A DNA stretch of 48,787 nucleotides, taken from Sphingobium arseniciresistens (GTDB lineage Bacteria > Pseudomonadota > Alphaproteobacteria > Sphingomonadales > Sphingomonadaceae). The position numbers and the translations under genes were made by a program. Below the pieces are notes generated by a model. The model saw nothing but the letters and a program-made list of their open reading frames with translations. It was not told the origin of the DNA and did no database searches. The DNA lies in contig JARFNK010000033.1 in the NCBI GenBank assembly GCA_029167225.1, positions 1 through 48,787 on the forward strand. Reading direction: 5' to 3'. This document shows, one piece after another, positions 21,052 to 48,655 of this stretch (position 1 is the stretch's first letter; each line of letters begins with the position of its first letter).

Positions 21052-21056
21052 ACGGA

Positions 21057-22544
21057 TCAGATCACCCGATCGGCCTCCAGCGCCCAGACGCTTGAATCCA
21101 GCCCGGCCGGCGCGCGGTTTTCCAGCCGGAAGGCGGCGGCGGCGAGCCGCTCGACTGCCGGCTCGATCTGGGCGTCGGGCAGGGTGAAGGGCAGGCGCAC
21201 GAACCGTTCGAACGCGCCGTTCACGCCGAAGCGCGGGCCGGGCGCCACCAGCAGGCCCTGACTGTGCGCCATCGCCGCCAGCGCGCTCGCCTGCGGCCGG
21301 GGAAGCTCTGCCCACAGGGAAAGCCCGCCCGCAGGCAATGGCACGCGCCAGTCGGGCAGGTGCCGGGCGAGCAGCGCCACGATCCGGTCACGCCGGTCGC
21401 GCAGCATCACCCGCCGGTCCGCCCCGCCCGTCACCGTGCCATCCAGCAGCGCCGCGACCGCAAGCTGGTCGACGATCGGCGTCGCCATGTCGATGGTCGC
21501 GCGGATGCGGGCGAGCGCCGCGATCGTCTGCTCGTCCGCCCTGATCCAGCCGATGCGCAGCCCGCCCCACAGCCGCTTGCTGGCCGAGCCGATGCTAATG
21601 ACGCGGGTGCCGGTCGGATCGAAGGCGGCGACCGGCGGCGGTAGCGCGACATCCCCCAGCAGGTCGCCGTCCAGCGGCATCTCGGCCATCGTCTCGTCGA
21701 TCAGCAGCGGCGTGCGGCTGCGTTCGGCCACGTCCACCAGCGCGCGGCGCGTGGCGGCGTCCATGATCCGGCCGGTGGGATTATGGAAATCGGCAATGAT
21801 ATAGGCAAGGCGCGGCCCGGTCTGGCGAAAGCTCGCGTCGATCGCCTCGATATCCCATCCCTGGTCGGGCAGGCCGACCGGCACCGGCACGCAATTGCTC
21901 TTCTGGATGCAGAAGAGCGCGTTGTGATAGGTCGGGTGATCCACGACGATGCGGTCGCCGGGCGCCGCCATCAGCCGTAGCAGCAGCGCCAGCGCATGCT
22001 GCGCGCCGCTCGTCACCATGATCTGCGCCGAGTCGGTGGGGCAGCCGCGCCGGACATAATCGGCCGCGATCGCCTGTCGCAGCCGGGGGATGCCGATCGC
22101 TTCATAGCCATGGCCCGAGAGCCATGCCGGCAACTGCCCCAAAGCAGCCTCATAGGCATGCCACACGGTTTCAGGCGCCGGCAGCGCGGCCGCCGTCCAG
22201 TTGATGATGCCATCGCGCTCGATGGTATCCACGCCATAGGCGGGCGCATCCACCGTGCCGCCATTGGGAACACGGGTGACGCTGCCCGATCCCTGGCGGC
22301 TCTGCAGATAACCCTCGTCGCGCAGTTGGTCGAAGGCGGCGGCGACGGTCGTGCGGCTGACGCCGAGCGCCTGCGCGAGTTCCCGCTCGCCGGGGAAGCG
22401 GATGCCCAGCCCCACGCGGCCGTCCAGCACCAGCAGCTTGAGCGCGCGCGCAAGCTGGCGATAGGCCGGGTCGCCATTGCCGCTGCTGCGCCAGTTGCCG
22501 AGATGGCGGACCAGAGAGGCCGCACCGAGGGAGGAAATGCTCAT
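21057..22544 (-). CDS. MocR-family regulator (GntR helix-turn-helix + aminotransferase domain), YczR-like
   Basis: A 495-residue regulator combining an N-terminal winged helix (FPGERELAQALGVSRTTVAAAFDQLRDEGYL) with a fold-type I aminotransferase domain that binds pyridoxal phosphate; the PLP lysine is expected in VISIGSASKRLWGGLRIGW. It is divergent from a YczE-type membrane protein. The yczR-yczE pairing is known from Bacillus and actinobacteria, so this is probably a YczR-type MocR controlling that gene. The ATG at 22544 is chosen over an earlier one at 22634 because it matches the family N-terminus. The effector is unknown. Confidence 0.9.
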   Translation of the reverse strand: MSISSLGAASLVRHLGNWRSSGNGDPAYRQLARALKLLVLDGRVGLGIRFPGERELAQALGVSRTTVAAAFDQLRDEGYLQSRQGSGSVTRVPNGGTVDAPAYGVDTIERDGIINWTAAALPAPETVWHAYEAALGQLPAWLSGHGYEAIGIPRLRQAIAADYVRRGCPTDSAQIMVTSGAQHALALLLRLMAAPGDRIVVDHPTYHNALFCIQKSNCVPVPVGLPDQGWDIEAIDASFRQTGPRLAYIIADFHNPTGRIMDAATRRALVDVAERSRTPLLIDETMAEMPLDGDLLGDVALPPPVAAFDPTGTRVISIGSASKRLWGGLRIGWIRADEQTIAALARIRATIDMATPIVDQLAVAALLDGTVTGGADRRVMLRDRRDRIVALLARHLPDWRVPLPAGGLSLWAELPRPQASALAAMAHSQGLLVAPGPRFGVNGAFERFVRLPFTLPDAQIEPAVERLAAAAFRLENRAPAGLDSSVWALEADRVI

Positions 22545-33837: not shown

Positions 33838-34986
33838 GTGACGCAACTCCTCTCCGGCTTCCCGCCGGCGCACGTCTCCCGTCTCGTCATCAAGATCGGC
33901 TCGGCGCTGCTCGTCGATCCGGCGGGGCAGGTGCGCGAGGCGTGGCTGCGCACGCTGGTCGCCGATGTCGCGGCACGGCGCGCGGCGGGCCAACAGATCA
34001 TCATCGTGTCCTCCGGCGCGATCGCGTTGGGCGCGCGGCGCGCAGGCTTGGCAAAGGGCGGGCGCGGCAGCCTGGAAGATGCGCAGGCCGCCGCCGCCAT
34101 CGGCCAGATCGCGCTGTCCCAGACCTGGGCGGCGCTGCTCGCCGAACAGGGCATCACCGCCGCGCAGATGCTGGTCACGCTCGACGATCTTGAGCATCGC
34201 CGCCGCTACCTCAACGCCTCCGCCACGCTGGAGCGACTGCTGAGCCTGGGCGCCGTGCCGGTGGTGAACGAGAATGACAGCGTCGCCACCGCAGAGATCC
34301 GCTTCGGCGACAATGATCGGCTCGCCGCACGCATCGGGCAGGCCGCGCGGGCTGACGCGGTAGTCCTTCTGTCTGACGTGGACGGGCTTTACACCGCCAA
34401 TCCGCATGTCGATGCCAGCGCCATGCTCGTCGAACGGATCGAAAGAATAGATGCCGCCATCATGGCCATGGCCGATGGCGGTTCAGGGTCGGGCATGGGA
34501 TCGGGCGGCATGCACTCCAAGATCGAGGCGGCGAAGATCGCGACCCGCGCGGGCGCCCACCTCGCCATCATCTCGGGCCACAAGGACGCGCCGCTCTCCG
34601 CCTGGGAACAGGGCGGCAAGGGCAGCATCTTCGTGGCGCAGGCCCCCGGCAAGGGCAGCGGCCGCGCGCGCCAGGGCTGGCTCGCCGGACGACTGACGAC
34701 ACGCGGCCACATCACCATCGATGCCGGCGCAGCGCGCGCGCTCGCCAAGGGCAACAGCCTGCTGCCCGCCGGCGTGCGCGCGGTTGCCGGCCTGTTCACC
34801 CGCGGCGATGTCGTCGACATCATCGGAGAGGATGGCCGCCCGATCGCGCGTGGCCTGTCGGAATATGACAGCGCCGACGCCACCCGCATCGCCGGCCTGC
34901 GCAGCGACGAGATCGCCGCCATCCTCGGCGACGTCCCTCGCTTCGTCCTCGTCCACCGCGACCATATGGTGATGCTCGGCCAATGA
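33838..34986 (+). CDS. proB: Glutamate 5-kinase
   Basis: First enzyme of proline synthesis: phosphorylates the gamma-carboxylate of glutamate. The kinase domain has LVIKIGSALLVD, IIVSSGAIALGARR, VPVVNENDSVA and GGMHSKIEAAKIATRAGAH; a C-terminal PUA domain starts near residue 285 (ITIDAGAARALAKGNSLLPAGV). I start at a GTG (33838), eight bases after GGGAG; upstream codons run into the intergenic palindrome. The length of 382 residues is near the family norm. Its TGA overlaps the ATG of the next gene (ATGA). Confidence 0.96.
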   Translation: MTQLLSGFPPAHVSRLVIKIGSALLVDPAGQVREAWLRTLVADVAARRAAGQQIIIVSSGAIALGARRAGLAKGGRGSLEDAQAAAAIGQIALSQTWAALLAEQGITAAQMLVTLDDLEHRRRYLNASATLERLLSLGAVPVVNENDSVATAEIRFGDNDRLAARIGQAARADAVVLLSDVDGLYTANPHVDASAMLVERIERIDAAIMAMADGGSGSGMGSGGMHSKIEAAKIATRAGAHLAIISGHKDAPLSAWEQGGKGSIFVAQAPGKGSGRARQGWLAGRLTTRGHITIDAGAARALAKGNSLLPAGVRAVAGLFTRGDVVDIIGEDGRPIARGLSEYDSADATRIAGLRSDEIAAILGDVPRFVLVHRDHMVMLGQ

Positions 34987-35900
34987 AGGGCTTCAGGATT
35001 GCGATCACCGGCGCGACGGGCTTCGTCGGCGCCGCCACCCTCGACCGCGCATTGAAAGCGGGCTTCAGCGTGAACGCGCTCACCCGCCGCAAGCAACCCT
35101 CGCGGCGCGGCGTGACATGGGTGGCCGGTTCGCTCGACGACCAGGCGAGCCTCGACCGGATGGTGCGCACCGCCGACGCGGTGCTGCACATCGCTGGCGT
35201 GGTGAACGCCCGCGATCGTGCCGGGTTCGAGGAAGGCAATGCGCTGGGCACGATGCGGGTGGTCGATGCCGCGCGCAAGGCCGGCGTACGCCGCTTCGTC
35301 CACGTCTCCTCGCTGGCCGCGCGTGAGCCCTCCCTCTCCTCCTATGGCTGGTCGAAGGAATTGGCCGAGCGCTATGTGAAGGCGAGCGGGCTCGACTGGA
35401 CGATCGTGCGGCCACCGGCCATCTATGGTCCGGGCGACCGCGACATCCTCGACCTGTTCCGCATGGCCAAGCGCGGCATCATGCTGCTGCCGCCCGGCGG
35501 ATCGCTCTCGATCATCGCCGTCGAAGATCTGGCGGAGCTGCTGCTGACCCTCGTCCTGGACCAGGAGGAAAGCCGCGCGCAGGTCTATGAAGTGGACGAC
35601 GGCACCAAGGGCGGCTTCACCCATGACAGCTTCGGCCGCGCCATCGGCCGCGCCGTGGGCAAGCAAGTGCGCTGCATCGCTGCCCCGCGCTGGCTGCTCG
35701 ATGCGGCCGCCTGGATGGACGGCACCATCCGCCGCGACAAGGCGAAGCTGACACCCGACCGGGTCAACTATTACTGCCATCCCGACTGGGTGAGCAATCC
35801 GATGAAGGCCGTGCCGCCGCAACTGTGGACGCCGCAGGTCTTCGCCGCCGAGGGCCTGGCGAGCACCGCCCGCGCCTATCGCGCCAAGGGCTGGCTGTAG
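34983..35900 (+). CDS. NAD(P)-dependent epimerase/reductase, CerR-like
   Basis: A 305-residue extended SDR: nucleotide-binding TGATGFVGAATLDRAL, active-site YGWSKELAERY (Tyr and Lys in the YxxxK pattern) and VRPPAIYGPGDRDI. Caulobacter CerR, which reduces 3-oxo-dihydroceramide, is a protein of this family encoded next to spt and acp. The location here, two genes before acp-spt, suggests the same role. It overlaps proB by four bases, so it is co-translated with a proline gene, which is odd for a lipid enzyme. Another sugar- or lipid-directed reductase is possible. Confidence 0.8.
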   Translation: MKGFRIAITGATGFVGAATLDRALKAGFSVNALTRRKQPSRRGVTWVAGSLDDQASLDRMVRTADAVLHIAGVVNARDRAGFEEGNALGTMRVVDAARKAGVRRFVHVSSLAAREPSLSSYGWSKELAERYVKASGLDWTIVRPPAIYGPGDRDILDLFRMAKRGIMLLPPGGSLSIIAVEDLAELLLTLVLDQEESRAQVYEVDDGTKGGFTHDSFGRAIGRAVGKQVRCIAAPRWLLDAAAWMDGTIRRDKAKLTPDRVNYYCHPDWVSNPMKAVPPQLWTPQVFAAEGLASTARAYRAKGWL

Positions 35901-35922: not shown

Positions 35923-36648
35923 CTACACCATCCGTCCCAGGCCCCATTCGGCAATGAACGCGATGAAGCTGAGGCAGAGCCCGGTCAGGAAGGCCCGGTA
36001 GGCAAAGCCCAGATAACGGTATTTCTTGCCGTTCAGCACCTGCCCGTTCTGGTAGATGTCGCGCAGCATCGTGCGGTAGATTTTCTCGTCGTCGTCCAGC
36101 CTGTCGACGATTCGGTCGATGAACGCATCCTCGGTCAGGCTGGTGAAGATACCGAAGAACATGATGTTGGCATCGTCGCCGATCGGGCCGTCGATCCGCG
36201 TCACCTTGGGCAGGACGGAGAGGATCGCGAAGATCGCCGCCACCATCGCCCCGCCCGCAAGGATCGCGACCGGCAACAGCATCGTGCCCGCCCGGAATTG
36301 CCCGACGGAGAGGGTGAAGACCACGAAGGCCGCGCCCATCACCATATTCGCCTTCTGGTCGGCCATCTGACTGAGCTGCAGGTTGCAGGCCATCGACGTC
36401 CTGACCAGATGCACCGCATTGGGCGCCAGCGGGCGGGCCGGCGCCGCCGCGCGGAAGGCGCCCGTGTCGAGAGCTGAACTGGAGCTGGAACTGGAACCGG
36501 GGCTGATGCCAAGGCCCGCGCCCATGCCCTTGCCGGGGGCCTCATTCCGGGCATTGCCCAAGGCATTATCCGGGGCATTGCCCGGGCCGGGGCCGAGCCG
36601 TGCGCCCTCTTCCCCATGGCCGGGCGCGGCGTGGTCGCTGTCCATCAT
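35923..36648 (-). CDS. Pycsar-effector-family (PycTM-like, DUF5706) membrane protein
   Basis: A 241-residue protein. The first 80 residues are low-complexity (Gly/Pro/Asn-rich, then seven serines from alternating TCC/AGT codons). The conserved part starts CNLQLSQMADQKANMVMGAAF, followed by two membrane helices, the NIMFFGIFTSLTEDAFIDRI block and a C-terminal helix. This matches the PycTM domain of Pycsar anti-phage effectors, which damage the membrane when they sense a cyclic pyrimidine nucleotide. No pyrimidine cyclase gene is adjacent, so defence is not established. It is convergent with the CerR-like gene and divergent from acp. ATG 36648 and 36645 are both possible. Confidence 0.75.
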   Translation of the reverse strand: MMDSDHAAPGHGEEGARLGPGPGNAPDNALGNARNEAPGKGMGAGLGISPGSSSSSSSALDTGAFRAAAPARPLAPNAVHLVRTSMACNLQLSQMADQKANMVMGAAFVVFTLSVGQFRAGTMLLPVAILAGGAMVAAIFAILSVLPKVTRIDGPIGDDANIMFFGIFTSLTEDAFIDRIVDRLDDDEKIYRTMLRDIYQNGQVLNGKKYRYLGFAYRAFLTGLCLSFIAFIAEWGLGRMV

Positions 36649-36773
36649 GGTAAATGCATCGCACCATCTGCACATTACGGCAAGATCATGCCCGATTGAC
36701 GCCTTATTCCCTTGCCAAAGGGATCAGATTGGGCACAGACCCGCGCACTCATTTTTCCGCAAGAAAGCAGACC

Positions 36774-37016
36774 ATGACGGATCGCCAGCAGATTTTCGAC
36801 AGCGTCGCGGCACAGATCGCGCCGTTCAACAAGAAGGAGGCCCCCCTGAGCGAGGCTACCACCTTCGCCGGCGATCTGGAGTGGGACAGCCTGACCGTGA
36901 TGGACTTCGTCGCCGCGATCGAGGACGAGTTCGACATCATCATCACCATGAACATGCAGGCAGAGATCGAGACCATCGGCCAGCTGGTCGATGCCGTGGC
37001 CAAGCTGAAAGCCTGA
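36774..37016 (+). CDS. Acyl carrier protein dedicated to sphingolipid synthesis
   Basis: An 80-residue acyl carrier protein. The phosphopantetheine attachment is Ser39 in DLEWDSLTVMDFVAAIEDEFDI; the helix after the serine is strongly acidic, as in all ACPs. Its position 110 bases before spt agrees with the Caulobacter and Sphingomonas arrangement, where the serine palmitoyltransferase takes its acyl chain from this ACP rather than from CoA. The chosen ATG matches the usual length. No acyl-ACP synthetase gene is in the window. Confidence 0.92.
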   Translation: MTDRQQIFDSVAAQIAPFNKKEAPLSEATTFAGDLEWDSLTVMDFVAAIEDEFDIIITMNMQAEIETIGQLVDAVAKLKA

Positions 37017-37102: not shown

Positions 37103-37126
37103 ACTGAACCGAACGGATTGATGCAC

Positions 37127-38386
37127 ATGACCGAAGCAGCCGCCACCGCCACCACGCCCCAGGCCGACACCGCGCCCGCCGCGACCGACCTGTTCTCCAA
37201 ATTCGACGGCCTGATCGCCGAGCGCGAGGCGCTGCTGGCGACCGGCGTGCGCGATCCCTTCGCCATCGTCATGGACGAGGTGAAGTCGCCGACGCTCGCG
37301 GTCATCAAGGGCAAGGAGACGATCCTGCTCGGTACCTATAATTATATGGGCATGACCTTCGACCCGGACGTGGTCGCGGCGGGCAAGAAGGCGCTGGACG
37401 AATTCGGCGCCGGCACCACGGGCAGCCGCGTGCTCAACGGCACCTATCAAGGCCACAAGGCATGCGAGGACGCGCTCAAGGACTTCTACGGCACCGATCA
37501 CGCCATGGTCTTCTCGACCGGCTACCAGGCGAACCTGGGCATGATCTCCACGCTCGCCGGCAAGGGCGATTATGTGGTGCTGGATGCGGACAGCCATGCA
37601 TCGATCTATGACGGCTGCTTCCTGGGCAATGCCGAAATCGTCCGTTTTCGACATAATAGCGTGGAAGATCTCGACAAGCGGCTCGGCCGCCTGCCCGCCG
37701 ACGCGCAAAAGCTGGTCGTGCTGGAGGGCGTCTATTCGATGCTGGGCGACATCGCCCCTCTGCCCGAGATGGTGGCTGCCGTGCGCAAGCATCCCAACTG
37801 CATGATCCTGGTGGACGAGGCCCATGGCATGGGCTTTTTCGGCCCCAATGGCCGCGGCGTCTATGAGGAGCAGGGCGTCGAGAAGGACGTGGATTTCGTC
37901 GTCGGCACCTTCTCCAAGTCGGTCGGCACGGTCGGCGGCTTCTGCGTATCGAACCACCCCAAGTTCGAGGTGCTGCGCCTCGTCTGCCGCCCCTATGTGT
38001 TCACCGCGTCGCTGCCGCCCAGCGTCGTCGCGACCGCGGCAACCTCCATCCGCAAGCTCATGCACGCGGGCGAAAAACGCGCGCATCTTTGGGAAAACAG
38101 CCGCCGCCTGCATAAGGGGCTGACGGACCTAGGTTTCACGCTCGGCACGAAGACGCCGCAGTCCGCGATCATCGCCGTCATCCTGACCGACCAGACGCAG
38201 GCCGTCGCCATGTGGCAGGCGCTGCTGGAACTCGGTCTGTACGTCAACATGGCTCGCCCCCCCGCCACGCCGGCCGGCACCTTCCTGCTGCGCTGCTCGC
38301 TCTGTGCCGAGCATAGCAGTGAGCAGGTGACGCAGATCCTGGGCATGTTCGAGGCCGCGGGCAAGGCGACCGGCACCATCGGCTGA
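37127..38386 (+). CDS. spt: Serine palmitoyltransferase
   Basis: Soluble PLP enzyme that condenses serine with an acyl thioester to 3-ketosphinganine, the committed step of sphingolipid synthesis. The 419-residue sequence closely follows the Sphingomonas paucimobilis enzyme: LLGTYNYMGMTFDPDV, DADSHASIYDG (cofactor-stacking His), LVDEAHGMGFFGPNGRG, the PLP lysine Lys264 in GTFSKSVGTVGG, and the C-terminal RPPATPAGTFLLRCSLCAEH. I use ATG 37127 (MTEAAATATT), which matches the paucimobilis N-terminus; ATG 37121 is also open. It follows acp in the same direction. Confidence 0.97.
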   Translation: MTEAAATATTPQADTAPAATDLFSKFDGLIAEREALLATGVRDPFAIVMDEVKSPTLAVIKGKETILLGTYNYMGMTFDPDVVAAGKKALDEFGAGTTGSRVLNGTYQGHKACEDALKDFYGTDHAMVFSTGYQANLGMISTLAGKGDYVVLDADSHASIYDGCFLGNAEIVRFRHNSVEDLDKRLGRLPADAQKLVVLEGVYSMLGDIAPLPEMVAAVRKHPNCMILVDEAHGMGFFGPNGRGVYEEQGVEKDVDFVVGTFSKSVGTVGGFCVSNHPKFEVLRLVCRPYVFTASLPPSVVATAATSIRKLMHAGEKRAHLWENSRRLHKGLTDLGFTLGTKTPQSAIIAVILTDQTQAVAMWQALLELGLYVNMARPPATPAGTFLLRCSLCAEHSSEQVTQILGMFEAAGKATGTIG

Positions 38387-38483
38387 GGCTTTTCCCGCGC
38401 CAAACGTCCCACCTCATAAATGGGGCGGAGCGGCGCAAGAAATCCGCTTTCCCTATCCCATGTTGTGGACTAGGGTCTGGTTA

Positions 38484-40478
38484 ATGGAAGTCGCATCCAT
38501 ATCGGCGGGAGAGCCACATTGGTGGCGGGTTCGCTTACGCATCACGCTCCCAGTGTTGGTTGGCGCGATGCTCGTCTGTGCGCTCGCCGCGCTGCTCTTC
38601 TATGCGAGCAGGGCGGCGACCGATCGCGACAATGCGCTGAACGAACAGCGTAACAGCTACAAGGTCATCACCCTCGTCCGCCGGCTGGATGCCAGCATGG
38701 CACGCGCTGAATCGACCCTCTCGCGTTATGTCATTGGTATGGACGCAGATACCGGCCGTTTGTTCCAGGAACAGTGGCGTAATGCCGGCGAGGAATTGAA
38801 CGCGCTGGTGTTCATCACCCGCAATTCCGCCTGGCAGCGGGCCTCGATCGTCGATCTGCGCGACGCCTATAATGATCGCGGACAGTTGCTGACGGAGATC
38901 GGCCTGCGCACCACCTACGACCAGAAGATGGCGGCGCTCGCGCAGTTCCATCAGGCCGGGCAGGCGGACAATCTCAAGCGCATCGACACCCTGCTCAACC
39001 AGATCATCAAGGCGGAGGAAGCCCGCCTTGCCGAGCGCAGCAATGCCGTCAACCTCGCCGGCGCGCGCAGCAAGCGCTTTTCCGACACCTCCAGCCTCGT
39101 GGGCCTCGCGCTACTGGTCTCCTGCCTGTTCGCCGCATGGATTGCGCTGACGGCGATACAGGACAGGCGCAAGGCGCGCACGCTAGCCGAAAGCGAAGCC
39201 GCCCGCGCCGACGATCTGGAAGCCGCCGTGACGCGCCGCACCGCCGAACTGCGCGCCACCAACGAACGGCTGAAGGAGGAAGCGACCGAGCGCGCCGCCG
39301 CCGAGGAAAGCCTGCGCCAGATGCAGAAGATGGAGGCCGTGGGCCAGCTGACCGGCGGCATCGCCCATGACTTCAACAATATGCTGGCGGTGGTCGTGGG
39401 CGGGCTGGAGCTGGCGAAGCGCAAGCTGCACCTCGACCAGGAACTGGCCGAACGGCATCTGGACAATGCGATGGAGGGCGCCAATCGCGCCTCCACCCTC
39501 ACCCGCCGCCTGCTTGCCTTCGCCCGTGCTGAGCCGCTGCTGCCCTCCGCGCTCGATGCCGACATGCTGGTCACGGGCATGACCGAGATGATCGACCGGA
39601 CGATCGGCGACCAGATCAAGGTTGAACTGGACCTGCAGGCGCGCGGCTGGGCGATCTTCGCCGACAGGCACCAGCTGGAGAACGCGCTGCTCAACCTCGC
39701 CGTCAACGCGCGCGACGCGATGGACGGGCGCGGCACGCTGACGATATCGACGCAGCAGGCCACGCTTGCCGCGCATGAGTTAGGGGAATGCGGCGCGGGC
39801 GAGTATATCCGCCTGTCGGTGGCCGACAATGGCTGCGGCATGACCCCGGACGTGCTGGAGCGCGTGTTCGAACCCTTCTTCACCACCAAGCCGATGGGCA
39901 AGGGCACCGGCCTGGGCCTCAGCCAGATCTTCGGCTTCGTGCGCCAGTGCAGCGGCGAGATCCGCATGGAATCGACCCCTGACGAGGGCACGCGCGTCCA
40001 CCTCTACCTTCCGCGGCGGATCACGCCGGCGGAACAGAACCTGGCGTCCTCCCCCCTCAAGGTCGCGCGCGTCGAGGCGACCATTCCGCCCACCCGCATC
40101 CTGATCGTGGAGGACGACCCGCGTGTCCTTGCCCAGACCATCGCCGCCATCGAGGAACTGGGCCACCTGCCGATCGCCTGCGATCACCCGACCAAGGCGG
40201 CGGCCATGCTCGGCCGGCATCGCGACATCGGCCTCATCATCAGCGATGTGATGATGCCGGAGATGACCGGGCCGGAAATGATCCGGCAACTGGGGCCGGC
40301 CTATAGCCGCATCCCAGTGCTGTTCGTCACCGGCTATACCGGCGACAGCACGGACAGCAGCCTGTTCGAAGGGCATATCGTGCTGCGTAAGCCCTATACG
40401 CTGGGCGGCCTCGCATCCTCGATCGTGCGCGCCATCAACGAACAGCCCGGCTTGCAAACAAGCGCGGCAGCAGAGTGA
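38484..40478 (+). CDS. Hybrid sensor histidine kinase with C-terminal receiver
   Basis: A 664-residue sensor. The N-terminal helix (about residues 20-45) and a second near 210-230 bracket a periplasmic helical domain that looks CHASE3-like. After a coiled coil comes the phosphorylation site H295 in [13 protein letters not shown], the ATPase boxes [37 protein letters not shown] and GTGLGLSQ, and a receiver with Asp588 in ISDVMMPEM. The HDFNN type is frequent among hybrid kinases. ATG 38484 is preferred over 38460. Its signal is unknown. The last 44 bases overlap the end of the opposing Tam41-like gene. It follows spt by about 100 bases. Confidence 0.92.
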
Positions 40479-41331
40479 AGGCGGCGAGCAGCGGCCAGCG
40501 CCGCTGCCACGGGCTAATGACGATTGCCGTGCCCGCGTGGCGATTGATCTTCCACGCCAGATAATCGATCCCGCCGGCGAAGGTGAAGCTGGCCTTGGCC
40601 AGGCGCAATACGGACAGCCACTTGCCCCGCCGCTGCAGCGATCGCCAGCGCCTGGCATTGGCCGAGGCCTGCGCCGCCGTGGGCACCTCGCCAACCGGCA
40701 CCGCCTGCGCGAAGCGGCGATAGCGATCGGGATCGCTGTCCACGATGGAGGCCGACCGGTCCTCACGCTCCGCCCGCAGTTCCGCGCGGTAGGTGCGCGC
40801 GAACCCGGCATACCAGCGCGCCAGCGGATCACGCCGCGCTTCCCCGGTCACTGCCGGCGCGGCAAGATCGAGCAGCGTCGGCGCGGCCAGCGCCACGGCT
40901 TCGACAGCGCGGGCACGGGCGGCTTCGTCGCTCCACCATAGGAGCCGCGTGGGCTGCGCGAACCGCGCCCAGACCGAGACATTGTCCGCCTCCGGCCCGC
41001 ACAGCCGGGCGAAATCCGCCTCGCTCAGCACCGCATATTTCGCCGCGAGCCCATCATGGGCGAACGGAAAGACATTAGGCGGGATCAGCCGGTTGGCACA
41101 CGCCATCCAGCTCTTGCCATAGGCAGCGCGATAGTCCGACACGATCAGGTAGAAATCGAGCATCAGCCCGTCGAGATTCTTCTCCCGCAGGCATGATCCA
41201 TAGAACAGCACCGCCCGCGCGGCACCGGGATATTGCGCTGCAATGGCCCCCGCCATCGCCACGGCGCGCGGATCGGCAGGGACAGCCAGTTCGGCTGCGA
41301 CAAGGGCGGAAAGATGATCGGCCATGGTCAT
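40435..41331 (-). CDS. Tam41-like nucleotidyltransferase (possible CDP-lipid synthase)
   Basis: A 298-residue protein. The N-terminal half has a nucleotidyltransferase motif, VLFYGSCLREKNLDGLMLDFYLIV (Gly45-Ser46, Asp54, Asp59), then NRLIPPNVFPF, KYAVLSEADFARL and VWARFAQPTRLLW. This order follows Tam41/Mmp37, the mitochondrial phosphatidate cytidylyltransferase (GS, MLDF, KYGVIS, then AGRLQKPVKIL, as I recall it). It would attach CMP to a lipid phosphate. The lipid kinase two genes upstream on the same strand could supply that substrate. Assignment rests on motif order only. ATG 41331 or 41325. No membrane segment is obvious except a weak C-terminal one. Confidence 0.65.
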   Translation of the reverse strand: MTMADHLSALVAAELAVPADPRAVAMAGAIAAQYPGAARAVLFYGSCLREKNLDGLMLDFYLIVSDYRAAYGKSWMACANRLIPPNVFPFAHDGLAAKYAVLSEADFARLCGPEADNVSVWARFAQPTRLLWWSDEAARARAVEAVALAAPTLLDLAAPAVTGEARRDPLARWYAGFARTYRAELRAEREDRSASIVDSDPDRYRRFAQAVPVGEVPTAAQASANARRWRSLQRRGKWLSVLRLAKASFTFAGGIDYLAWKINRHAGTAIVISPWQRRWPLLAAFTLLPRLFASRAVR

Positions 41332-41339
41332 GCCCTAGA

Positions 41340-41384
41340 GCATCGGACGCGAAAGTGGGAACCGCTTTTGCGCGGGAACGATGC
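41340..41384. repeat. Nested palindrome between the Tam41-like gene and the next gene
   Basis: Outer arms GCATCG (41340-41345) and CGATGC (41379-41384) enclose an imperfect inner pair CGCGAAAG / CTTTTGCGCG. The pattern (TAGAGCATCG start, AAAG...CTTTT centre) resembles alphaproteobacterial RIME-type intergenic palindromes; the same TAGAGCATCG start occurs at 27076. Confidence 0.5.
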
Positions 41385-41429
41385 GGCAGCGCCAAAGCAT
41401 CGGCGCGCGCGAGGGAAAGCGGGCGCGGA

Positions 41430-41897
41430 TTATCGCGGGGGAGCGGCCGCTCCTCGCGGCAGATCGACCGGCAGCGCGACATCCGCGTCCGGGTCCACCA
41501 GCAAGGTGCCCAGCCGAATTGTCGCGCTCAGGGGATCGCGGCCGCCGCCATAGCCATATTCGCGCGCTTCCGTCTTGCTGCACCGGCGCTGTCCCTGGAA
41601 TATCCCGCATGGTGCCAGCGGAGCGGCATTCGCCGACGCGCGCGGGGCTTCACCAGGATGACGGCGCAGCTGATCGGACGGGGGACGCTCGCCGCGCAGC
41701 GGCAGCCGGTAGCGGTCGTCGCTACGCCGACGGCCGCAGACCATGATCTCCGCCTCGTTCAGACCGTCGGACACGGCGCCGCACTGGCTGGCGGAAGTCA
41801 TGTCGTGCGCAGCGTCGAGCAGGGACTGCATCGATGGCCGCGCGATGCCCGGCATGGAACCCTGCGCTAAAGCCGCGATGGGACAGGTCAAAGACAA
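41430..41897 (-). CDS. Uncharacterised, probably exported protein
   Basis: An open frame of 155 codons with an apparent hydrophobic leader (LTCPIAALAQG) followed by a polar body with MVCGRRRSDDRYRLPLRGERPPSD and CGIFQGQRRCSKTEAREYGYGGGRDP. Arg/Tyr motifs of this sort recur in small periplasmic proteins of sphingomonads, but I know no function. Start uncertain: TTG 41897 keeps the leader, ATG 41855 removes it. It lies between the lipid kinase and the Tam41-like gene on the same strand and is presumably cotranscribed. Confidence 0.5.
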   Translation of the reverse strand: MSLTCPIAALAQGSMPGIARPSMQSLLDAAHDMTSASQCGAVSDGLNEAEIMVCGRRRSDDRYRLPLRGERPPSDQLRRHPGEAPRASANAAPLAPCGIFQGQRRCSKTEAREYGYGGGRDPLSATIRLGTLLVDPDADVALPVDLPRGAAAPPR

Positions 41898-41953
41898 GGC
41901 AGAAATAGGGCCAATCCGCCACCATGGCAGAAGGCCTTGAATCGCCCGCCCCT

Positions 41954-42928
41954 TCAGGCGGCGAGCCGCAGGAAGGGCACCGGCGCGGTCGAGCGCAGCA
42001 CGATCGGCCGTCCCTCGCTGGCCTCGAACAGTTCGCCATCCAGGATGACGTTGCTGCGGTCGCCCTCGATGCGGATCATGTCGCCGCGCTCCAGATGGAT
42101 ACCCTGCATCCGCCGGGCGCCATCGCGGCGCATCAGGCCGAAGGCGGCGAGGCGCAGCAGCGATCCGACATTATGATCCACCGCCATCAGCTTCAGGCTG
42201 CCGAGGCCGCCGCCCGAAGCGCCCGGCCGCGCGCCCAGCAGCAATTTTTCCAGCGTCGTCACGATCAGCACCGCGAACCGGCCGACAAGCTGCCCGTCGC
42301 GGATCAGCGAGATGCTGACCGGCCGGGCGCGCGGCGGCATGAACGAGGCGCGCAGGCCGAAGATCAGCGAGACCAGCACCGCCATCGCCGTGATGAAATG
42401 GCTGAACCCATTGGAGAGACCCAGCGGATAGATCTTGTTGCGGCAATAGAGGATATAGTCGGCAAGCCCGGCCCCGCCCAGGAACATGCCCAGCACCGGG
42501 CGGCTTTCCGCGCGCCCGTCCGTCAGCGCGATCAGTTCGCGCGCGACAACATGATCCTCCACGCCCGTCTTGGCGATGTCGACGATCCGCTCCAGCGCGG
42601 TGATCGGGTCGCCATGGATGCCAAGGTCGAGCGCGATCAGGTTGGTCTTGCCATTGGGCAGCACCGCGATCGGCGGCACCTTCCCCTTGAAATGCTCGCC
42701 CTGGTACAGCTCGGTCAGCGCCGCCTGCACCGTGCCGTCGCCGCCATTGATGACGATGACGGCCGGCTCGATCCGCGCGAAGATTTGCAGCGCGCGGCCG
42801 ATCTGGTCCACATGCTCCACCTCATAGTGGAAGATGTCGGGATGGTTGGCGCAATAGCTCCGCACGCGCGGCAGGGTCTGCCGATTGCCCGTCGACTTGG
42901 GATTGGAGAGCAGCGCGACAAGAACCAT
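41954..42928 (-). CDS. Diacylglycerol/sphingosine (LCB5-like) lipid kinase
   Basis: A 324-residue kinase with the DAGK catalytic domain: NPKSTGNRQTLPRV at the N-terminus, the nucleotide-binding GGDGTVQAALTEL (Gly62-Gly63-Asp64-Gly65-Thr66) and IAVLPNGKTNLIALDLG, then a C-terminal beta-sandwich. The family phosphorylates diacylglycerol, sphingoid bases or ceramide; Caulobacter CpgB is a ceramide kinase of this class. Location inside the sphingolipid island makes ceramide or sphinganine a likely substrate, by inference. It starts 26 bases after the DUF2141 gene. Confidence 0.88.
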   Translation of the reverse strand: MVLVALLSNPKSTGNRQTLPRVRSYCANHPDIFHYEVEHVDQIGRALQIFARIEPAVIVINGGDGTVQAALTELYQGEHFKGKVPPIAVLPNGKTNLIALDLGIHGDPITALERIVDIAKTGVEDHVVARELIALTDGRAESRPVLGMFLGGAGLADYILYCRNKIYPLGLSNGFSHFITAMAVLVSLIFGLRASFMPPRARPVSISLIRDGQLVGRFAVLIVTTLEKLLLGARPGASGGGLGSLKLMAVDHNVGSLLRLAAFGLMRRDGARRMQGIHLERGDMIRIEGDRSNVILDGELFEASEGRPIVLRSTAPVPFLRLAA

Positions 42929-42954: not shown

Positions 42955-43473
42955 TCAGCCGTGAATGGGCTTGAAGCTCAAGCCCTGCACATAGTTGAGC
43001 ACGACATTGATCTTGCGTGTCGAATCGCCGACCGCGAACTGAGTTTTCGACAGCGGCGGCTTCCGCTTGAAGACGAGGTCCGACAGGCTGACCGACGGAT
43101 TGCCGGAGAAGCCGCCGCCATCGCTGCGGTCGCTCTTGCCGCTGCCGTTCACGTCATGGCGGACATAGAGGGCGTAGTTGCCGGCCTTGGGCACGGCGAC
43201 GCACACCTCCATCGCGCCGGAGCGCGTGACGGGCAGCTCGATCCGCTCCAGATACTGGCGCTTTTCGAGGAACGTCTTTTCATTGGCGGCATAGAGCTGC
43301 ACGCGCAGCATGCCCGCGCGCTCCTTGAAACCATCGATATGCACGAGCACGGCGGCGCCGTTGCGCTCGCAGGTCGCGGCCTGCGGCCCGAGCGCGGCAC
43401 TGGCGGGAGCCGGATTCGCCGCAGCCATCAGCGCCACGAGGGCGCCCATCGACACGGCCGGAATTTTCAACAT
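42955..43473 (-). CDS. DUF2141 periplasmic protein
   Basis: A 172-residue secreted protein with signal peptide (VSMGALVALMAAANPAPASA) and a DUF2141 beta domain: VLVHIDGFKERAGMLRVQLYAANEKTFLEK, then YALYVRHDVNGSGKSDRSDGGGFSGNPSVSLSDLV. The DVNGSGKSD stretch resembles a calcium-binding loop. Function unknown. The frame is open upstream into the divergent control region, so I use ATG 43473, with AGGAG ten bases before it. It is the first gene of the minus-strand group DUF2141, kinase, exported protein, Tam41-like. Confidence 0.88.
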   Translation of the reverse strand: MLKIPAVSMGALVALMAAANPAPASAALGPQAATCERNGAAVLVHIDGFKERAGMLRVQLYAANEKTFLEKRQYLERIELPVTRSGAMEVCVAVPKAGNYALYVRHDVNGSGKSDRSDGGGFSGNPSVSLSDLVFKRKPPLSKTQFAVGDSTRKINVVLNYVQGLSFKPIHG

Positions 43474-43607
43474 GACCAACACACTCCTGGCGGCTATAGC
43501 CCGCCGGACGCCACGGCCCGGCAGACGACGCCCCTGTTCGCCCCGCAGGATTGATATGGGCACCGTTTGCGGCCAAAACATGGTGATGGAACGACCACAT
43601 ATTGAAA

Positions 43608-44822
43608 ATGCTGAGCGCCACTGACCGATATATCGCGCGCCTGATCGCCGTTCCGCTCCTGGGCACCCTTGTTCTGGCATCGATGCTGTTCGTGCTGGAC
43701 AAGATGCTGAGGCTGTTCGATTTCGTCGTTCAGGAAGGCGGCCCCGTCAGCGTCGTGTGGCGCATGCTCGCCAACATGATCCCGGAATATCTCTCGCTCG
43801 GCATCCCGATCGGGCTGATGCTGGGCATCCTGCTTGCCTTCCGCAAGCTCGCGACCTCCTCGGAACTCGACGTGCTGCGCGCCGTGGGCCTCTCCTACGG
43901 CCGGCTGCTGCGCGTGCCCTATATGTATGCGATCGGGCTGGCGCTGGTGAACCTGGCGATCGTGGGCTTCGTCCAGCCCTATGCCCGCTATGCCTATGAA
44001 GGGCTGCGATTCGAGCTGCGCTCGGGCGCGCTGGGCGCCTCGATCAAGGTCGGCGAGTTCACCAATTTCGGCAAGCGCATGACCATCCGCATCGAGGAGA
44101 GCGAAGATGGCGGCCGCAACCTGCACGGCATCTTCGTCCAGGCGAAGAATAGCAACAACCAGACGCTGGCGGTGACGGCGGCGCAGGGCACCTTCCTTGC
44201 CACCGACGACCCCGACACCATCATCTTTCGCCTGAAGGACGGCGTGCTGGTGCATAACGCCCCCGGCTTCCGCACGCCCCGCGTGCTGAGCTTCTCCAGC
44301 CACGACCTGCCGATCGACCTGCCGCAGATCGAGAATTTCCGCGGGCGCGGCGATGCCGACCGGGAACTGACCCTGCCGGAGCTGGTGCGCGTGGGCCATT
44401 CGCAGAAATCCAGCGCGGAGCTGCGCAACGAAGTGCGCGCCAATTTCCATTTCCGCATGGTGGAGGTGGCGATGATGCTGCTGCTGCCGATGGCGGCGCT
44501 TGCCTTCGCTGTGCCGCCCAAGCGATCGACATCGGCGCTCGGCGTCTTCCTCTCGATCATCTTCATCGTCACCTATCACAAGATCAACGAATATGCCGAG
44601 GCGGTGGGCGCGCTGGGCAAGATCGAGCCGATCATCGCGCTGTGGGTGCCCTTCCTGCTGTTCGCCGGGCTCATCATGTGGATGTACCATGTGCTGGCGC
44701 ACCGGGCCGGCGGGCAGCCCATCGGCGCGCTGGAAATCGCCTTCGCCAAGTTCGGCAAGTGGATCGGCCGGCTCATCCGGTTCGGCCGAGCCAAGATGCA
44801 AAGAGAGCCCGCCGCGCAATGA
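43608..44822 (+). CDS. lptF: LptF, lipid-export permease subunit
   Basis: Inner-membrane permease subunit of the LptB2FG transporter, 404 residues. N-terminal helices with DRYIARLIAVPLLGTLVLASMLFVLDKML and YLSLGIPIGLMLGILLAFRKLATSSELDVLRAVGLS (coupling helix), a periplasmic beta-jellyroll (about 125-275) and C-terminal helices with LLPMAALAFAVPPKRS. I prefer ATG 43608 to the TTG at 43602. Its stop overlaps the start of lptG. It is divergent from the DUF2141 gene. In sphingomonads, which have glycosphingolipid instead of LPS, the cargo may be a sphingolipid. Confidence 0.93.
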   Translation: MLSATDRYIARLIAVPLLGTLVLASMLFVLDKMLRLFDFVVQEGGPVSVVWRMLANMIPEYLSLGIPIGLMLGILLAFRKLATSSELDVLRAVGLSYGRLLRVPYMYAIGLALVNLAIVGFVQPYARYAYEGLRFELRSGALGASIKVGEFTNFGKRMTIRIEESEDGGRNLHGIFVQAKNSNNQTLAVTAAQGTFLATDDPDTIIFRLKDGVLVHNAPGFRTPRVLSFSSHDLPIDLPQIENFRGRGDADRELTLPELVRVGHSQKSSAELRNEVRANFHFRMVEVAMMLLLPMAALAFAVPPKRSTSALGVFLSIIFIVTYHKINEYAEAVGALGKIEPIIALWVPFLLFAGLIMWMYHVLAHRAGGQPIGALEIAFAKFGKWIGRLIRFGRAKMQREPAAQ

Positions 44823-45922
44823 TGATGCAATTCTTCCCGTCGCGGACCATGGCCTTCTACATGGCCAAGCTGTTCCTGGTGCGCAGCTTCGCGGTGCTGG
44901 CGCTGCTGGTGTTGGTGCTGCAGACGCTGGACCTGTTGGGCCAGACCGGCGACATCCTGGCGCATCCGGGCAACGGCAATGCGGAGCTCATCCATTATGT
45001 CGGCCTGCGCGTGCCCCAGATTATTGCCCGATTCCTGCCTTTTTCGGTGCTGCTCGGCACCATCATCACGCTGGCGACGCTGAACCAGAACAGCGAAGTC
45101 ATCTCGATGAAGGCCGCCGGGCTTTCCGCGCACCAGATCCTGGCGCCGCTGGTGGTCGCCGCCATCGGCATCGCCGCGCTCAGCTTCGTCTTCAACGAGC
45201 GGGTCGTAGCCCGCTCCACCGCCGCGCTCGACCTGTGGGAAGCGGTGGACTACGGCCCGATCCCGCATGAGACCGGGGTGAAGACCAACATCTGGGTGCG
45301 CGAGGGCGGCGACCTTATCAATGCCGGCTTCGTCGCCGGCCGCGCATCGGGCACGCTGCTCCGCCAGATCAAGATCTTCCGCCGGATCAACAATAGCCTC
45401 ATCACGATCCTGTCGGCCCCGCGCGGCCATTTCGACGCGAAGGCCGGCAAGGGCTGGATCCTGGAGGACGCGCAGCAATTCGACGTCGCGCGCGGCACCT
45501 CGCGCATGCTGGGCACCGTGCATCTGGGCGACGGCATTCGCAGCGACCAGTTCACCCTCGCGAAGGTCAATGCCGACGGCCTGTCGCTCGAACCCCTGCG
45601 CCAGGCTGTCGCCGACCTCAAGGATGCCGGCCGGCCCACCGCCGCGCTGGAAGCCAGCCTGTGGCACAAATTCTCCGGCCCGCTTTCATCGGTGCTGATG
45701 CCCCTGCTCGGATCGGTCGCGGCCTTCGGCCTGGCGCGTTCAGGCCGCCTGTTTATCCGTGCGGTGATCGGCATGGCGCTGGGCTTCGCCTATTTCGTGG
45801 CGGACAATTTCGCCCTCGCCATGGGCAATCTGGGCGCCTATCCGCCGCTCATGGCGGCATGGGCGCCGTTCCTGCTGTTCCTGCTGGTCGGCGAAACCGT
45901 GCTGATGCGGACCGAGGAATAG
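44819..45922 (+). CDS. lptG: LptG, lipid-export permease subunit
   Basis: The second permease subunit, 367 residues. The membrane and coupling region contains LPFSVLLGTIITLATLNQNSEVISMKAAGLSAHQIL, followed by FNERVVARS, a periplasmic jellyroll domain, and C-terminal helices with FSGPLSSVLMPLLGSVAAFGLARSGRLFIRAV. It starts at an ATG in the overlap with the lptF stop (ATGA), so both subunits are made together. The ATPase LptB and the bridge proteins are not encoded in this window. Confidence 0.93.
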   Translation: MMMQFFPSRTMAFYMAKLFLVRSFAVLALLVLVLQTLDLLGQTGDILAHPGNGNAELIHYVGLRVPQIIARFLPFSVLLGTIITLATLNQNSEVISMKAAGLSAHQILAPLVVAAIGIAALSFVFNERVVARSTAALDLWEAVDYGPIPHETGVKTNIWVREGGDLINAGFVAGRASGTLLRQIKIFRRINNSLITILSAPRGHFDAKAGKGWILEDAQQFDVARGTSRMLGTVHLGDGIRSDQFTLAKVNADGLSLEPLRQAVADLKDAGRPTAALEASLWHKFSGPLSSVLMPLLGSVAAFGLARSGRLFIRAVIGMALGFAYFVADNFALAMGNLGAYPPLMAAWAPFLLFLLVGETVLMRTEE

Positions 45923-46289: not shown

Positions 46290-47354
46290 TCAATGCGCTC
46301 GCATCGTGCTCCGGGCGATCTTGCCGATCAACGGCATCATGCCGGCATAGTTGCCGCGCTGATAGGTCGATTGCTCGCCCAGCACCTCCACCATGCGGCG
46401 ATGCGCCTGCCCCAGCGCATGATAGGGCACGCTTGGCAGCAGGTGGTGCAGCGCATGGTAGCGCAGGCCGACCGGCGCCCAGATCGGCGCCAGCAAAGCG
46501 GGCGGCGGGACGTTCACCGAATCGAGATATTGCGCCGTCACCGTCATCGCCTCGCCCTCATTTTCCCACAGATGCGCGACCAGCGTGCGCAGCTGGTTGA
46601 TGACGGTCATGCCCGAATGCACCGCCATGTAGACGAGCAGCGGCTTCCAGCCGAACACCGCCACGCTGCCCACCAGCGCGAGCGCGAACAGGCAGGCGCC
46701 CGCTTCCTGCCAGAACCACTGCCGCCTGAACTCGCCCTCGGGCGCGCGGCGGCGATAGGCGGGGTTGATCGACAGCGCCGAATAGCGCTCGCGCACGATC
46801 CGGCGGAAGGGTGGGATGACGAGGCCGAGCGGCGTCAGCACGCCGAAGCGGAGGATGAGACCGACCGGCGCCAGCGCCGCGGCCACGATGAACAGCGGCA
46901 GCGACCATGGCTTCATCAGCGCCAGCGGCAGATATTCGGGATCGTTCGCGGTGCCATAGCGGGTGCGGGCGTGATGCTGGGTATGCACCCCTTCATACAT
47001 GAAGGAGGGGATCATCAGCGGAACGCCGATGAGCAGGTTCCAGCCGAAGCGAAACCCCGGCAGCGCGCCTTTGCGGATATGCGTCAGCTCATGGATGAAG
47101 CTCGCCGCCCGGTACAGCGCCAGCATCGCCACCAGCGCCGCGCCGATCGCCAGCGCCACATTCTGCGCCAGAATCGCGACCGCGAGCCCGGCATAGCCAA
47201 GCAGCGCCGACGCCAGCAGATCAGGCCAGTAGATCGCGGGGTTGGCGGTGGAGAGATCGCGCGTCAGATCAGCCGCCGCGCGCAGCATCGCCGCATCGTC
47301 CGGGATCGGCGCGCGCGCGGTGGCGGGCGCGATAATGGTCTTATGAGCTGTCAT
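46290..47354 (-). CDS. Membrane fatty-acid desaturase
   Basis: A 354-residue di-iron membrane desaturase/hydroxylase. The three histidine boxes are HELTH (88-92), HTQHH (124-128) and HALHH (300-304), with about four membrane helices. The family introduces double bonds or hydroxyls into acyl chains or lipid-bound chains. It is divergent from the ceramide-synthase-like gene with a 143-base shared gap, so it may act on the sphingoid base or ceramide acyl chain; sphingomonad long-chain bases are often monounsaturated or cyclopropanated. A role in ordinary phospholipid desaturation or carotenoid modification cannot be excluded. Confidence 0.85.
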   Translation of the reverse strand: MTAHKTIIAPATARAPIPDDAAMLRAAADLTRDLSTANPAIYWPDLLASALLGYAGLAVAILAQNVALAIGAALVAMLALYRAASFIHELTHIRKGALPGFRFGWNLLIGVPLMIPSFMYEGVHTQHHARTRYGTANDPEYLPLALMKPWSLPLFIVAAALAPVGLILRFGVLTPLGLVIPPFRRIVRERYSALSINPAYRRRAPEGEFRRQWFWQEAGACLFALALVGSVAVFGWKPLLVYMAVHSGMTVINQLRTLVAHLWENEGEAMTVTAQYLDSVNVPPPALLAPIWAPVGLRYHALHHLLPSVPYHALGQAHRRMVEVLGEQSTYQRGNYAGMMPLIGKIARSTMRAH

Positions 47355-47497: not shown

Positions 47498-48655
47498 GTG
47501 GCTCAGACTGACGTAGTAATCTCCCCCGTTTCCGGCAAGGCCGACATCAAGGCCTTCGTCGAACTGCCCTGGACCATCTATGCGAACGATCCCAATTGGG
47601 TCGCGCCGCTGAAGGGGGAGGCGCACGCACTCATCACGCCCGGCAAGAACCCGTTCTTCGACCATGCCGAGGCGCAATATTTCCTTGCCCGGCGCGGCGG
47701 CGAGATCACCGGCCGCATTTCCGCCCATATCGACAGGCTGGCGCTCACGATCACGCCGGAACAGGGCATGGGGCCTGGCACCGGCAATTTCGGCCTGTTC
47801 GAGGCGAAGGACAAGGAAACCGCCGCCGCGCTGATCGCCGCCGCCGAGGACTGGCTGCGCGGCAAAGGCATGACCCGCGCGCTCGGGCCCCTCTCCCTCT
47901 CCATCTGGGAGGAGCCGGGCCTGCTCATCAAGGGCCACGATCATCCGCCCACGGTGATGATGGGCCACAACAGCGCGGCCTATCAACCCTGGATCGAGGC
48001 CGCCGGCTACGCGCCGGTGAAGCAGCTCAACACCTATGAGCTGGACATCACGAAGGACTTCCCGCCGCTCATCCAGCGCATCGTCCAGTCGGGCGAAAAG
48101 AACCCGCGCATCGTCATCCGCAAGGTCGACAAGTCGAAATTTGCCGAGGAAGCCGCCACGATCATGGCGATCCTGAACGACGCCTGGGGTCGCAACTGGG
48201 GCTTCGTGCCGATCACCGACACGGAGATCGCCTTCACCGGCAAGAAGCTGAAGCCGATCGTGTTCGAGGATCTGATCCGCATCGCCGAAGTGGATGGCGA
48301 GCCCGTCGCCTTCATGATGACGCTGCCCGACCTCAACGAGGCGATCAAGCCGCTCAATGGCAACCTCCTGCCCTTCGGCTGGGCGAAGCTGCTGTGGTGG
48401 CTGAGGAAGCCGCAGGTCCGCACCATGCGCGTGCCGCTGATGGGCGTGGTGCAGAAGCTGCAATCCTCCCGCCTTGCCAGCCAGCTCGCCTTCATGATGA
48501 TCGAGTTCATCCGCCGCGACGCAGTGTCGAAATATGGCGCCTCGCGCGGCGAGATCGGCTGGATCCTGGAGGATAACCAGGGGATGGTCGCGATCGCCGA
48601 GGCCATCAACAGCCATGTGAACAAGGTCTACCAGATCTACGCCAAGCCGCTTTAG
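47498..48655 (+). CDS. GNAT N-acyltransferase, bacterial ceramide synthase-like
   Basis: A 385-residue protein of the GNAT acyltransferase family that is often misannotated as dATP pyrophosphohydrolase. Features are FVELPWTIYANDPNWVAPL at the N-terminus, AALGPLSLSIWEEPGLLIKG-like text (ALGPLSLSIWEEPGLL) in the middle, LNDAWGRNWGFVPITDTE, and EIGWILEDNQGMVAIAEAINSHVNKVYQIY at the end. Caulobacter bacterial ceramide synthase (CC_1154, bCerS), as I recall, belongs to this group. It would N-acylate the sphingoid base or its 3-keto form. The start is GTG with AAAGG upstream. The position in the island supports the call. Confidence 0.82.
   Translation: MAQTDVVISPVSGKADIKAFVELPWTIYANDPNWVAPLKGEAHALITPGKNPFFDHAEAQYFLARRGGEITGRISAHIDRLALTITPEQGMGPGTGNFGLFEAKDKETAAALIAAAEDWLRGKGMTRALGPLSLSIWEEPGLLIKGHDHPPTVMMGHNSAAYQPWIEAAGYAPVKQLNTYELDITKDFPPLIQRIVQSGEKNPRIVIRKVDKSKFAEEAATIMAILNDAWGRNWGFVPITDTEIAFTGKKLKPIVFEDLIRIAEVDGEPVAFMMTLPDLNEAIKPLNGNLLPFGWAKLLWWLRKPQVRTMRVPLMGVVQKLQSSRLASQLAFMMIEFIRRDAVSKYGASRGEIGWILEDNQGMVAIAEAINSHVNKVYQIYAKPL

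Follow-up and report, generated by a model that had tools for sequence, protein, structure and literature searches.

Introduction

The closest described relative of the gene pair treated here belongs to the Caulobacter cluster CC_1168-CC_1152, which has been described gene by gene, with no function given for CC_1167 and CC_1157 (PMC11324152). Within this cluster, CpgB (CC_1160) phosphorylates ceramide (PMC10331486; PMC11324152), and a CC_1161 mutant contains no ceramide phosphoglycerate (CPG). Mutants in CC_1161 or in CC_1159/CC_1160 lose CPG and recover it when CC_1161 or CC_1160, respectively, is supplied, and mutants in CC_1152 (cpgD) and CC_1153 still form CPG and are missing CPG2 (PMC11324152). 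CpgD makes cytidine diphosphate (CDP)-glycerate, an activity shown in vitro (PMC12275187). The pathway helps Caulobacter to live without lipopolysaccharide, and its step from ceramide 1-phosphate to CPG is still unexplained: CC_1161 (CpgC) has an InterPro domain suggesting a CDP-diacylglycerol (CDP-DAG) synthase, and it might form a nucleoside diphosphate (NDP)-activated ceramide which an unknown enzyme would then condense (PMC11324152), while a 2026 preprint still terms the CpgC mechanism unidentified (PMC13228409).

Here we analyze a stretch of 48,787 nucleotides from Sphingobium arseniciresistens (contig JARFNK010000033.1, positions 1 to 48,787; the window, meaning the whole stretch) that encodes a CpgB-like putative ceramide kinase and a CpgC-like protein, a putative CTP:ceramide-1-phosphate cytidylyltransferase. 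The pair can be placed with good support in a known pathway. The original prediction, made from the letters of the window, had supposed an undescribed bacterial route; this does not hold, as the pair matches CpgB/CpgC of Caulobacter and an NDP-activated ceramide has already been proposed in print (PMC11324152). What the fold and the strict co-occurrence reported below add is a precise, testable reaction for CpgC, which probably makes CDP-ceramide by transferring cytidine monophosphate (CMP) onto ceramide 1-phosphate.

Results

Correspondence with the Caulobacter genes

Both open reading frames (ORFs) lie exactly where they had been placed, the CpgC-like one of 298 residues at 40435-41331 and the kinase of 324 residues at 41954-42928, both on the minus strand, and the motifs read in the 298-residue protein (GS, LDF, KYAVLS and RFAQPTRLLW) are all present. 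Relatives of this protein are encoded in 255 genomic stretches, the best 80 of which were kept, mostly from Sphingobium, Sphingomonas and near kin (the sphingomonad loci). Two CpgC alignments were used, A1 with 28 members and A2 with 35, the latter including sequences that share as little as 32% identity with the window protein.

In L217, a locus from a different family of the class, 17 genes follow the order of CC_1168-CC_1152 and agree with the functions given in PMC11324152: LptC, a 374-aa protein, a flippase, AasR, CerR, acyl carrier protein (ACP), serine palmitoyltransferase (SPT), CpgC (-) and the kinase (-), followed by a CDP-alcohol phosphotransferase (-), a metallophosphoesterase, DUF2141 (-), LptF, LptG, GNAT, NTP_transf_3 and NTP_transferase (-). 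From this order we infer that L217 is from Caulobacteraceae and, because it matches the published cluster, the window family stands at the CC_1161 place and the kinase at the CC_1160 place. The CpgC proteins of the window and L217 are 38.6% identical over 295 columns (E 1.3e-43) and the kinases 29%. Judged in this way, through L217 and not from CC_1161 itself, the window pair corresponds to Caulobacter CpgB (CC_1160) and CpgC (CC_1161). Sphingomonas wittichii is reported to have orthologues, for the most part good ones, of the genes of the cluster, CC_1158 excepted (PMC11324152).

Further pathway genes of the source genome, among them CpgA-, CpgD- and CofC-like ones, lie on another contig, C110. 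The CpgA-like protein, the third with PF01066 in the genome, shares 40-41% identity with those found next to the kinase in family f37; the same stretch of C110 also encodes a flippase (Polysacc_synt), an NTP_transferase that is CpgD-like, an NTP_transf_3 protein and a protein of 364 aa resembling the one at the CC_1167 place. A genome of the same family, G640, has flippase, CpgD-, 364-aa- and CpgA-like genes, DUF2141, kinase, CpgC and NTP_transf_3 in one cluster. The source assembly is marked as 6.02% contaminated, which leaves the origin of contigs C48 and C110 from one organism likely rather than certain.

The protein at the CC_1167 place, conserved and some 370 aa long (L217:3061-4182, plus strand; C110 at about 20353-21447, that is L129:10354-11448), is weakly like CDP-glycerol glycerophosphotransferases, its L232 homologue matching PF04464 at E 0.078, below cut-off. 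CC_1167 has been called probably unrelated, though cofit with spt and CC_1159 (PMC11324152); that it recurs next to CpgA, CpgD or the flippase points to a part in making the headgroup.

The CpgC-like protein resembles Tam41 in its predicted fold

Single-sequence scans with the 298-residue protein matched no Pfam and no NCBIfam family, and the CTP_transf_1 domain (CdsA, PF01148) was absent from it in the Pfam scan. An AlphaFold2 model built from the 28-member alignment reached a mean pLDDT (predicted local distance difference test) of 89.3 and a pTM (predicted template modeling score) of 0.87. When it was compared with the PDB by Foldseek, ranks 1-4 were all Tam41 chains (7ecd, 6ig2, 6ig4), with probability 1.00, template modeling (TM) scores of 0.46-0.56 and sequence identities of 12-15%, the match spanning nearly the whole length of the modeled protein. 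The top match, 7ecd (E 5.8e-6; TM 0.51/0.56), is a Firmicutes Tam41 with CTP-Mg (CTP, cytidine triphosphate) bound. The likeness to Tam41, at first read by eye, is upheld by this comparison, and the window protein, as modeled, shares the Tam41 fold; we do not assign it as a PF09139 member.

Twenty columns are invariant among the 35 members of A2, including Y44, G45, S46, D59, P85, K98, W121, R123, Q126, P127, E184, R186 and E188. In the YGS...LDF motif, D59 is the sole invariant acid where a DxD pair is expected; Tam41 retains only one of the three nucleotidyltransferase acids (PMC11646218). The last 60 residues of the window protein carry a net charge of +8, a basic tail that fits membrane binding of the Tam41 type, in which a positively charged C-terminal helix is used (PMC7018664). 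One distant family member, L114, passes PF09139 with 28.8 bits against a cut-off of 24 (1 of 10 scanned singly). A hidden Markov model (HMM) of 36 CpgC sequences from outside the window's family scores the window protein at 320 bits and, phylum-wide, A2 matches 27 of 398 genomes, two of which lie outside the class (G470, G482).

Aminoglycoside nucleotidyltransferases are also among the structural matches, ranking below the four Tam41 chains; a role of CpgC in resistance is disfavored by the genomic context.

The kinase

That the second gene encodes a kinase of the DAGK/LCB5 type is borne out by its DAGK_cat domain (PF00781, 6.8e-16) and a GGDGT motif in the translation. Scored with an HMM of 34 cpgC-linked kinases, none of them from the window's family, it reaches 240 bits, while the source genome's remaining two DAGK_cat proteins reach 38 and 33; by these scores the window kinase belongs with the cpgC-linked group, unlike the other two. 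Its model (pLDDT 73.0, adequate for fold class alone) matches DgkB, SphK1 and YegS.

Kinase and CpgC occur together

Co-occurrence was assessed in 385 genomes drawn evenly across the class (judged to be Alphaproteobacteria by the titles of the relatives), with thresholds of E<=0.001 for the CpgC profile A1, E<=1e-25 for the kinase profile A3 and E<=1e-100 for the SPT profile A4. The kinase threshold was set more strictly than that for CpgC because DAGK_cat has paralogues, and even the weakest of the best kinase matches reached E 2.3e-58. CpgC was found in 42 genomes and the kinase in 42, and the two sets are identical; the Fisher value from this analysis takes no account of genome relatedness, and we do not treat it as a probability. 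SPT was found in 49 genomes, 41 of which are among the 42 with CpgC. The matches to the CpgC and kinase profiles lie no more than 200 nt apart in 37 of the 42 and on different contigs in four, and the gap in the source is 649 nt.

Among the 80 sphingomonad loci, the kinase adjoins cpgC in 38; in 40 it was not found near cpgC despite more than 3 kb of upstream sequence covered, and 2 have too little upstream sequence. A genome search showed that all 40 genomes without a kinase near cpgC carry it elsewhere. In the 4 of these that were inspected, the displaced kinase sits with DUF2141, LptF, LptG and GNAT, so that there the island has been split between the kinase and cpgC. The proposed functional coupling of kinase and nucleotidyltransferase is supported by identical genome sets and by the kinases found elsewhere. 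Two of the observations that would have refuted the original prediction were looked for and did not refute it: a structural match to Tam41 exists, and the sampled genomes with the kinase do not lack cpgC.

In the source genome the two genes do not abut: the 622 bp between them hold an extra ORF of 155 aa (41430-41897, minus strand), outside the conserved pair and seen in none of the 80 sphingomonad loci. Pfam and NCBIfam scans of it gave no matches; relatives at E<=0.001 occur in 9 of 119 genomes of the family, source included, the best outside the source genome having E 5.4e-35 and 53% identity. The junction of kinase and cpgC is the same place where the island splits in Sphingobium-type genomes.

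Search for a consumer of the proposed CDP-ceramide

With a strong CpgA-like match defined as E<1e-80, CpgA-like proteins were found in 24 of the 42 CpgC genomes, in 0 of the 8 with SPT only and in 0 of 8 others. The neighbors that recur in 54 loci are LptF/G, SPT, GNAT, ACP, CerR, AasR, metallophosphoesterase, fatty acid hydroxylase, NTP_transf_3, DUF2141 and CpgA; CpgC is present in 52 of these loci, the kinase in 51 and every other neighbor in at most 44. Structure and strict co-occurrence show that the kinase and CpgC, not CpgA, form the common core. No obvious CDP-ceramide:glycerate transferase stands among the recurrent neighbors of the 54 loci. CpgA as a universal consumer is unlikely, given strong matches in just those 24 of 42 genomes, and Caulobacter without CC_1159 still makes CPG (PMC11324152).

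In some families (L117, L118, L119, L221 and L234), LptG is adjoined by a further CDP-alcohol phosphotransferase that is CpgA-like and about 400 aa long, a candidate for another headgroup step.

The surrounding island

The neighboring genes bear out that the pair lies in a sphingolipid island, comprising a reductase, ACP, SPT, a histidine kinase, DUF2141, two Lpt-like genes, a desaturase-family gene and a GNAT-like gene; the names SPT, CerR and LptF/G are assigned here in part from gene order. The plus strand carries the CerR-like NAD(P)-dependent reductase (34983-35900; PF13460/PF01370), a conserved neighbor, the AcpR-like ACP (36654-37016; PF00550, 4.1e-9), whose start may be internal, and the SPT of the ceramide backbone (37121-38386, started at the first in-frame Met), which profile A4, itself including this protein, finds in the source genome with E 5.6e-210. 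Beyond the pair, and also on the plus strand, are the LptF2-like (43602-44822) and LptG2-like (44711-45922, its start chosen inside a longer ORF) transporter subunits, so named in part from the places CC_1156 and CC_1155, and a GNAT-like ceramide synthase at the CerS/CC_1154 place (47498-48655), with a weak PF00583 match below cut-off and 44% identity to the L217 gene standing at that place. The minus strand carries a fatty acid desaturase/hydroxylase family protein (46290-47354; PF00487, 7.2e-28) and a DUF2141 protein (42955-43680; PF09912, 4e-19), a recurrent kinase neighbor whose true start is probably inside the ORF. DUF2141 proteins recur by the kinase/CpgC pair or the Lpt genes in several families (L121, L122, L124, L125, L217, L232), and a DUF2141-like gene occupies the CC_1157 place in L217.

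Between spt and cpgC lies a hybrid histidine kinase (38460-40478, plus strand), with PF02518, PF00072 and PF00512 over cut-off and PF05227 below it. It adjoins cpgC in 69 of the 80 sphingomonad loci, had no matches in 29 short loci of other families (L088-L116) and is possibly a regulator of sphingolipid synthesis. A PycTM membrane protein of the Pycsar effector type (PF18967) is also encoded within the island, at 35923-36675 on the minus strand, and similar proteins are present in 19 of the 80 loci.

Discussion

We propose that the CpgB-like kinase would phosphorylate ceramide to ceramide 1-phosphate, onto which CpgC, with its predicted Tam41 fold and basic C-terminal tail, would move CMP from CTP, giving CDP-ceramide and pyrophosphate; a further enzyme would swap CMP for glycerate or phosphoglycerate to give CPG, and CpgA and CpgD, encoded on the other contig, would add a second phosphoglycerate from CDP-glycerate. 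Since in Caulobacter cpgD mutants still make CPG and CpgD makes CDP-glycerate, the formation of CPG is independent of CDP-glycerate; and since CPG requires the kinase and CpgC and not CDP-glycerate, the place left for activation is the ceramide phosphate, as expected for CDP-ceramide. A Tam41 fold whose nearest structure has CTP bound makes CTP the likeliest nucleotide. The activation of ceramide 1-phosphate by CMP transfer, as the original prediction had it, is in this way supported and likely right, yet it had already been proposed in print as NDP activation (PMC11324152).

Several observations weigh against this reaction. The Foldseek match to 7ecd has a TM of just 0.51/0.56 with an rmsd (root mean square deviation) of 6.3, and other nucleotidyltransferases match too, after Tam41, namely 3c18 (nucleotidyltransferase-like) and aminoglycoside nucleotidyltransferases; E184 and E188 are invariant in the 35 members just as D59 is. 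PF09139 gave no match for the window protein and, at E<=10, none for the 28 A1 members, and 33 of the 35 A2 members do not match it while 2 touch it; profiles A1 and A2 miss Tam41 when run against PDB sequences (weak hits, best E 0.064 and 0.069). PF09139 likewise found nothing in the source genome and 14 control genomes, Caulobacter vibrioides included; being silent in all of them, it is uninformative on presence or absence. In addition, 8 genomes have SPT without either gene, and a single one, G334, carries both genes but no SPT match at the threshold used. As to the consumer, 18 of the 42 CpgC genomes show no strong CpgA-like match, so that a dedicated one is not evident, and 6 of the 17 of these that were scanned (G325, G159, G167, G026, G158, G256) have exactly two PF01066 proteins at E<=0.001, which from their scores are taken to be PgsA and PssA. 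Finally, CDP-ceramide is absent from the literature searched, which leaves out most subscription journals, and no CpgC enzyme assay was found there. CDP-ceramide would thus be used by a housekeeping enzyme or by an enzyme of another class; failing both, it has no consumer and CPG arises by direct condensation.

In this last explanation, the first model of Zik et al. as cited in PMC11324152 and PMC12275187, CpgC would join glycerate or phosphoglycerate directly to ceramide 1-phosphate without any CDP-lipid. The lipids of the Caulobacter mutants are compatible with a single step from ceramide 1-phosphate to CPG (PMC11324152, PMC12275187), and no separate CDP-alcohol phosphotransferase able to consume CDP-ceramide was found in the six genomes named above. 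However, the nearest folds are those of CTP-using enzymes, condensation without activation has been termed energetically not very favorable, and cpgD mutants, expected to be without CDP-glycerate, still form CPG (PMC11324152), so that we regard direct condensation as unlikely.

Less probable still is a second CDP-DAG synthase, the duller alternative of the original prediction, in which CpgC would use phosphatidate like true Tam41 and the kinase would make phosphatidate or another lipid phosphate. Tam41 does make CDP-DAG, as does its homologue in Firmicutes (PMC7018664, PMC11646218), and diacylglycerol kinases are the top structural matches of the kinase. This alternative is weakened by a PF01148 (CdsA-family) protein in 44 of 45 CpgC genomes, that is, in the source (a separate protein at C1:316199-316939) and in 43 of the 44 others, the miss being G372, which is 77% complete. 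The genes, moreover, track SPT (41 of 42) and sit in a sphingolipid island, and Caulobacter mutants in CC_1161 or in CC_1159/CC_1160 lose CPG, with restoration by CC_1161 or CC_1160 (PMC11324152).

That another nucleotide activates ceramide 1-phosphate, or that a nucleotide-bearing ceramide is an end product and not an intermediate, would accord with a published proposal that specifies just NDP activation (PMC11324152) and with the lack of a known consumer of CDP-ceramide, but is improbable given that the closest structure has CTP bound and that the reported Caulobacter products are CPG and CPG2 (PMC11324152).

If CDP-ceramide is indeed what CpgC makes, the headgroups of sphingolipids would be assembled by way of an activated lipid of the same type as those of phospholipids. 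More tentatively, CDP-ceramide might be a general alphaproteobacterial liponucleotide, supplied by two enzymes of its own (CpgB and CpgC) as a counterpart to CDP-DAG; the housekeeping PssA or PgsA would draw on it as well, CpgA being a later addition for the second phosphoglycerate. Such a use by PssA or PgsA is suggested because several genomes bearing the pair have just two CDP-alcohol phosphotransferases; the headgroup machinery would then be shared between glycerolipids and sphingolipids.

Compared with known systems, the window protein is like Tam41/TAMM41, the mitochondrial CDP-DAG synthase (PF09139; 7ecd, 6ig2, 6ig4), in its predicted fold, in a YGS motif with a single invariant acid and in a basic C-terminal tail, and unlike it in sharing 12-15% identity, in lacking a PF09139 match and in a setting of sphingolipid rather than cardiolipin genes. 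CdsA (PF01148) would catalyze the same type of reaction as proposed for CpgC, between CTP and a lipid phosphate, but is an unrelated integral membrane family (PMC7018664). The nearest counterparts are Caulobacter CpgB (CC_1160/CCNA_01218) and CpgC (CC_1161/CCNA_01219), with the same gene pair, neighbors and order in the Caulobacter-type cluster L217, whereas in the genome of the window the pathway is divided over two contigs, spt and cpgC are separated by a histidine kinase, and the pair itself is interrupted by an extra ORF.

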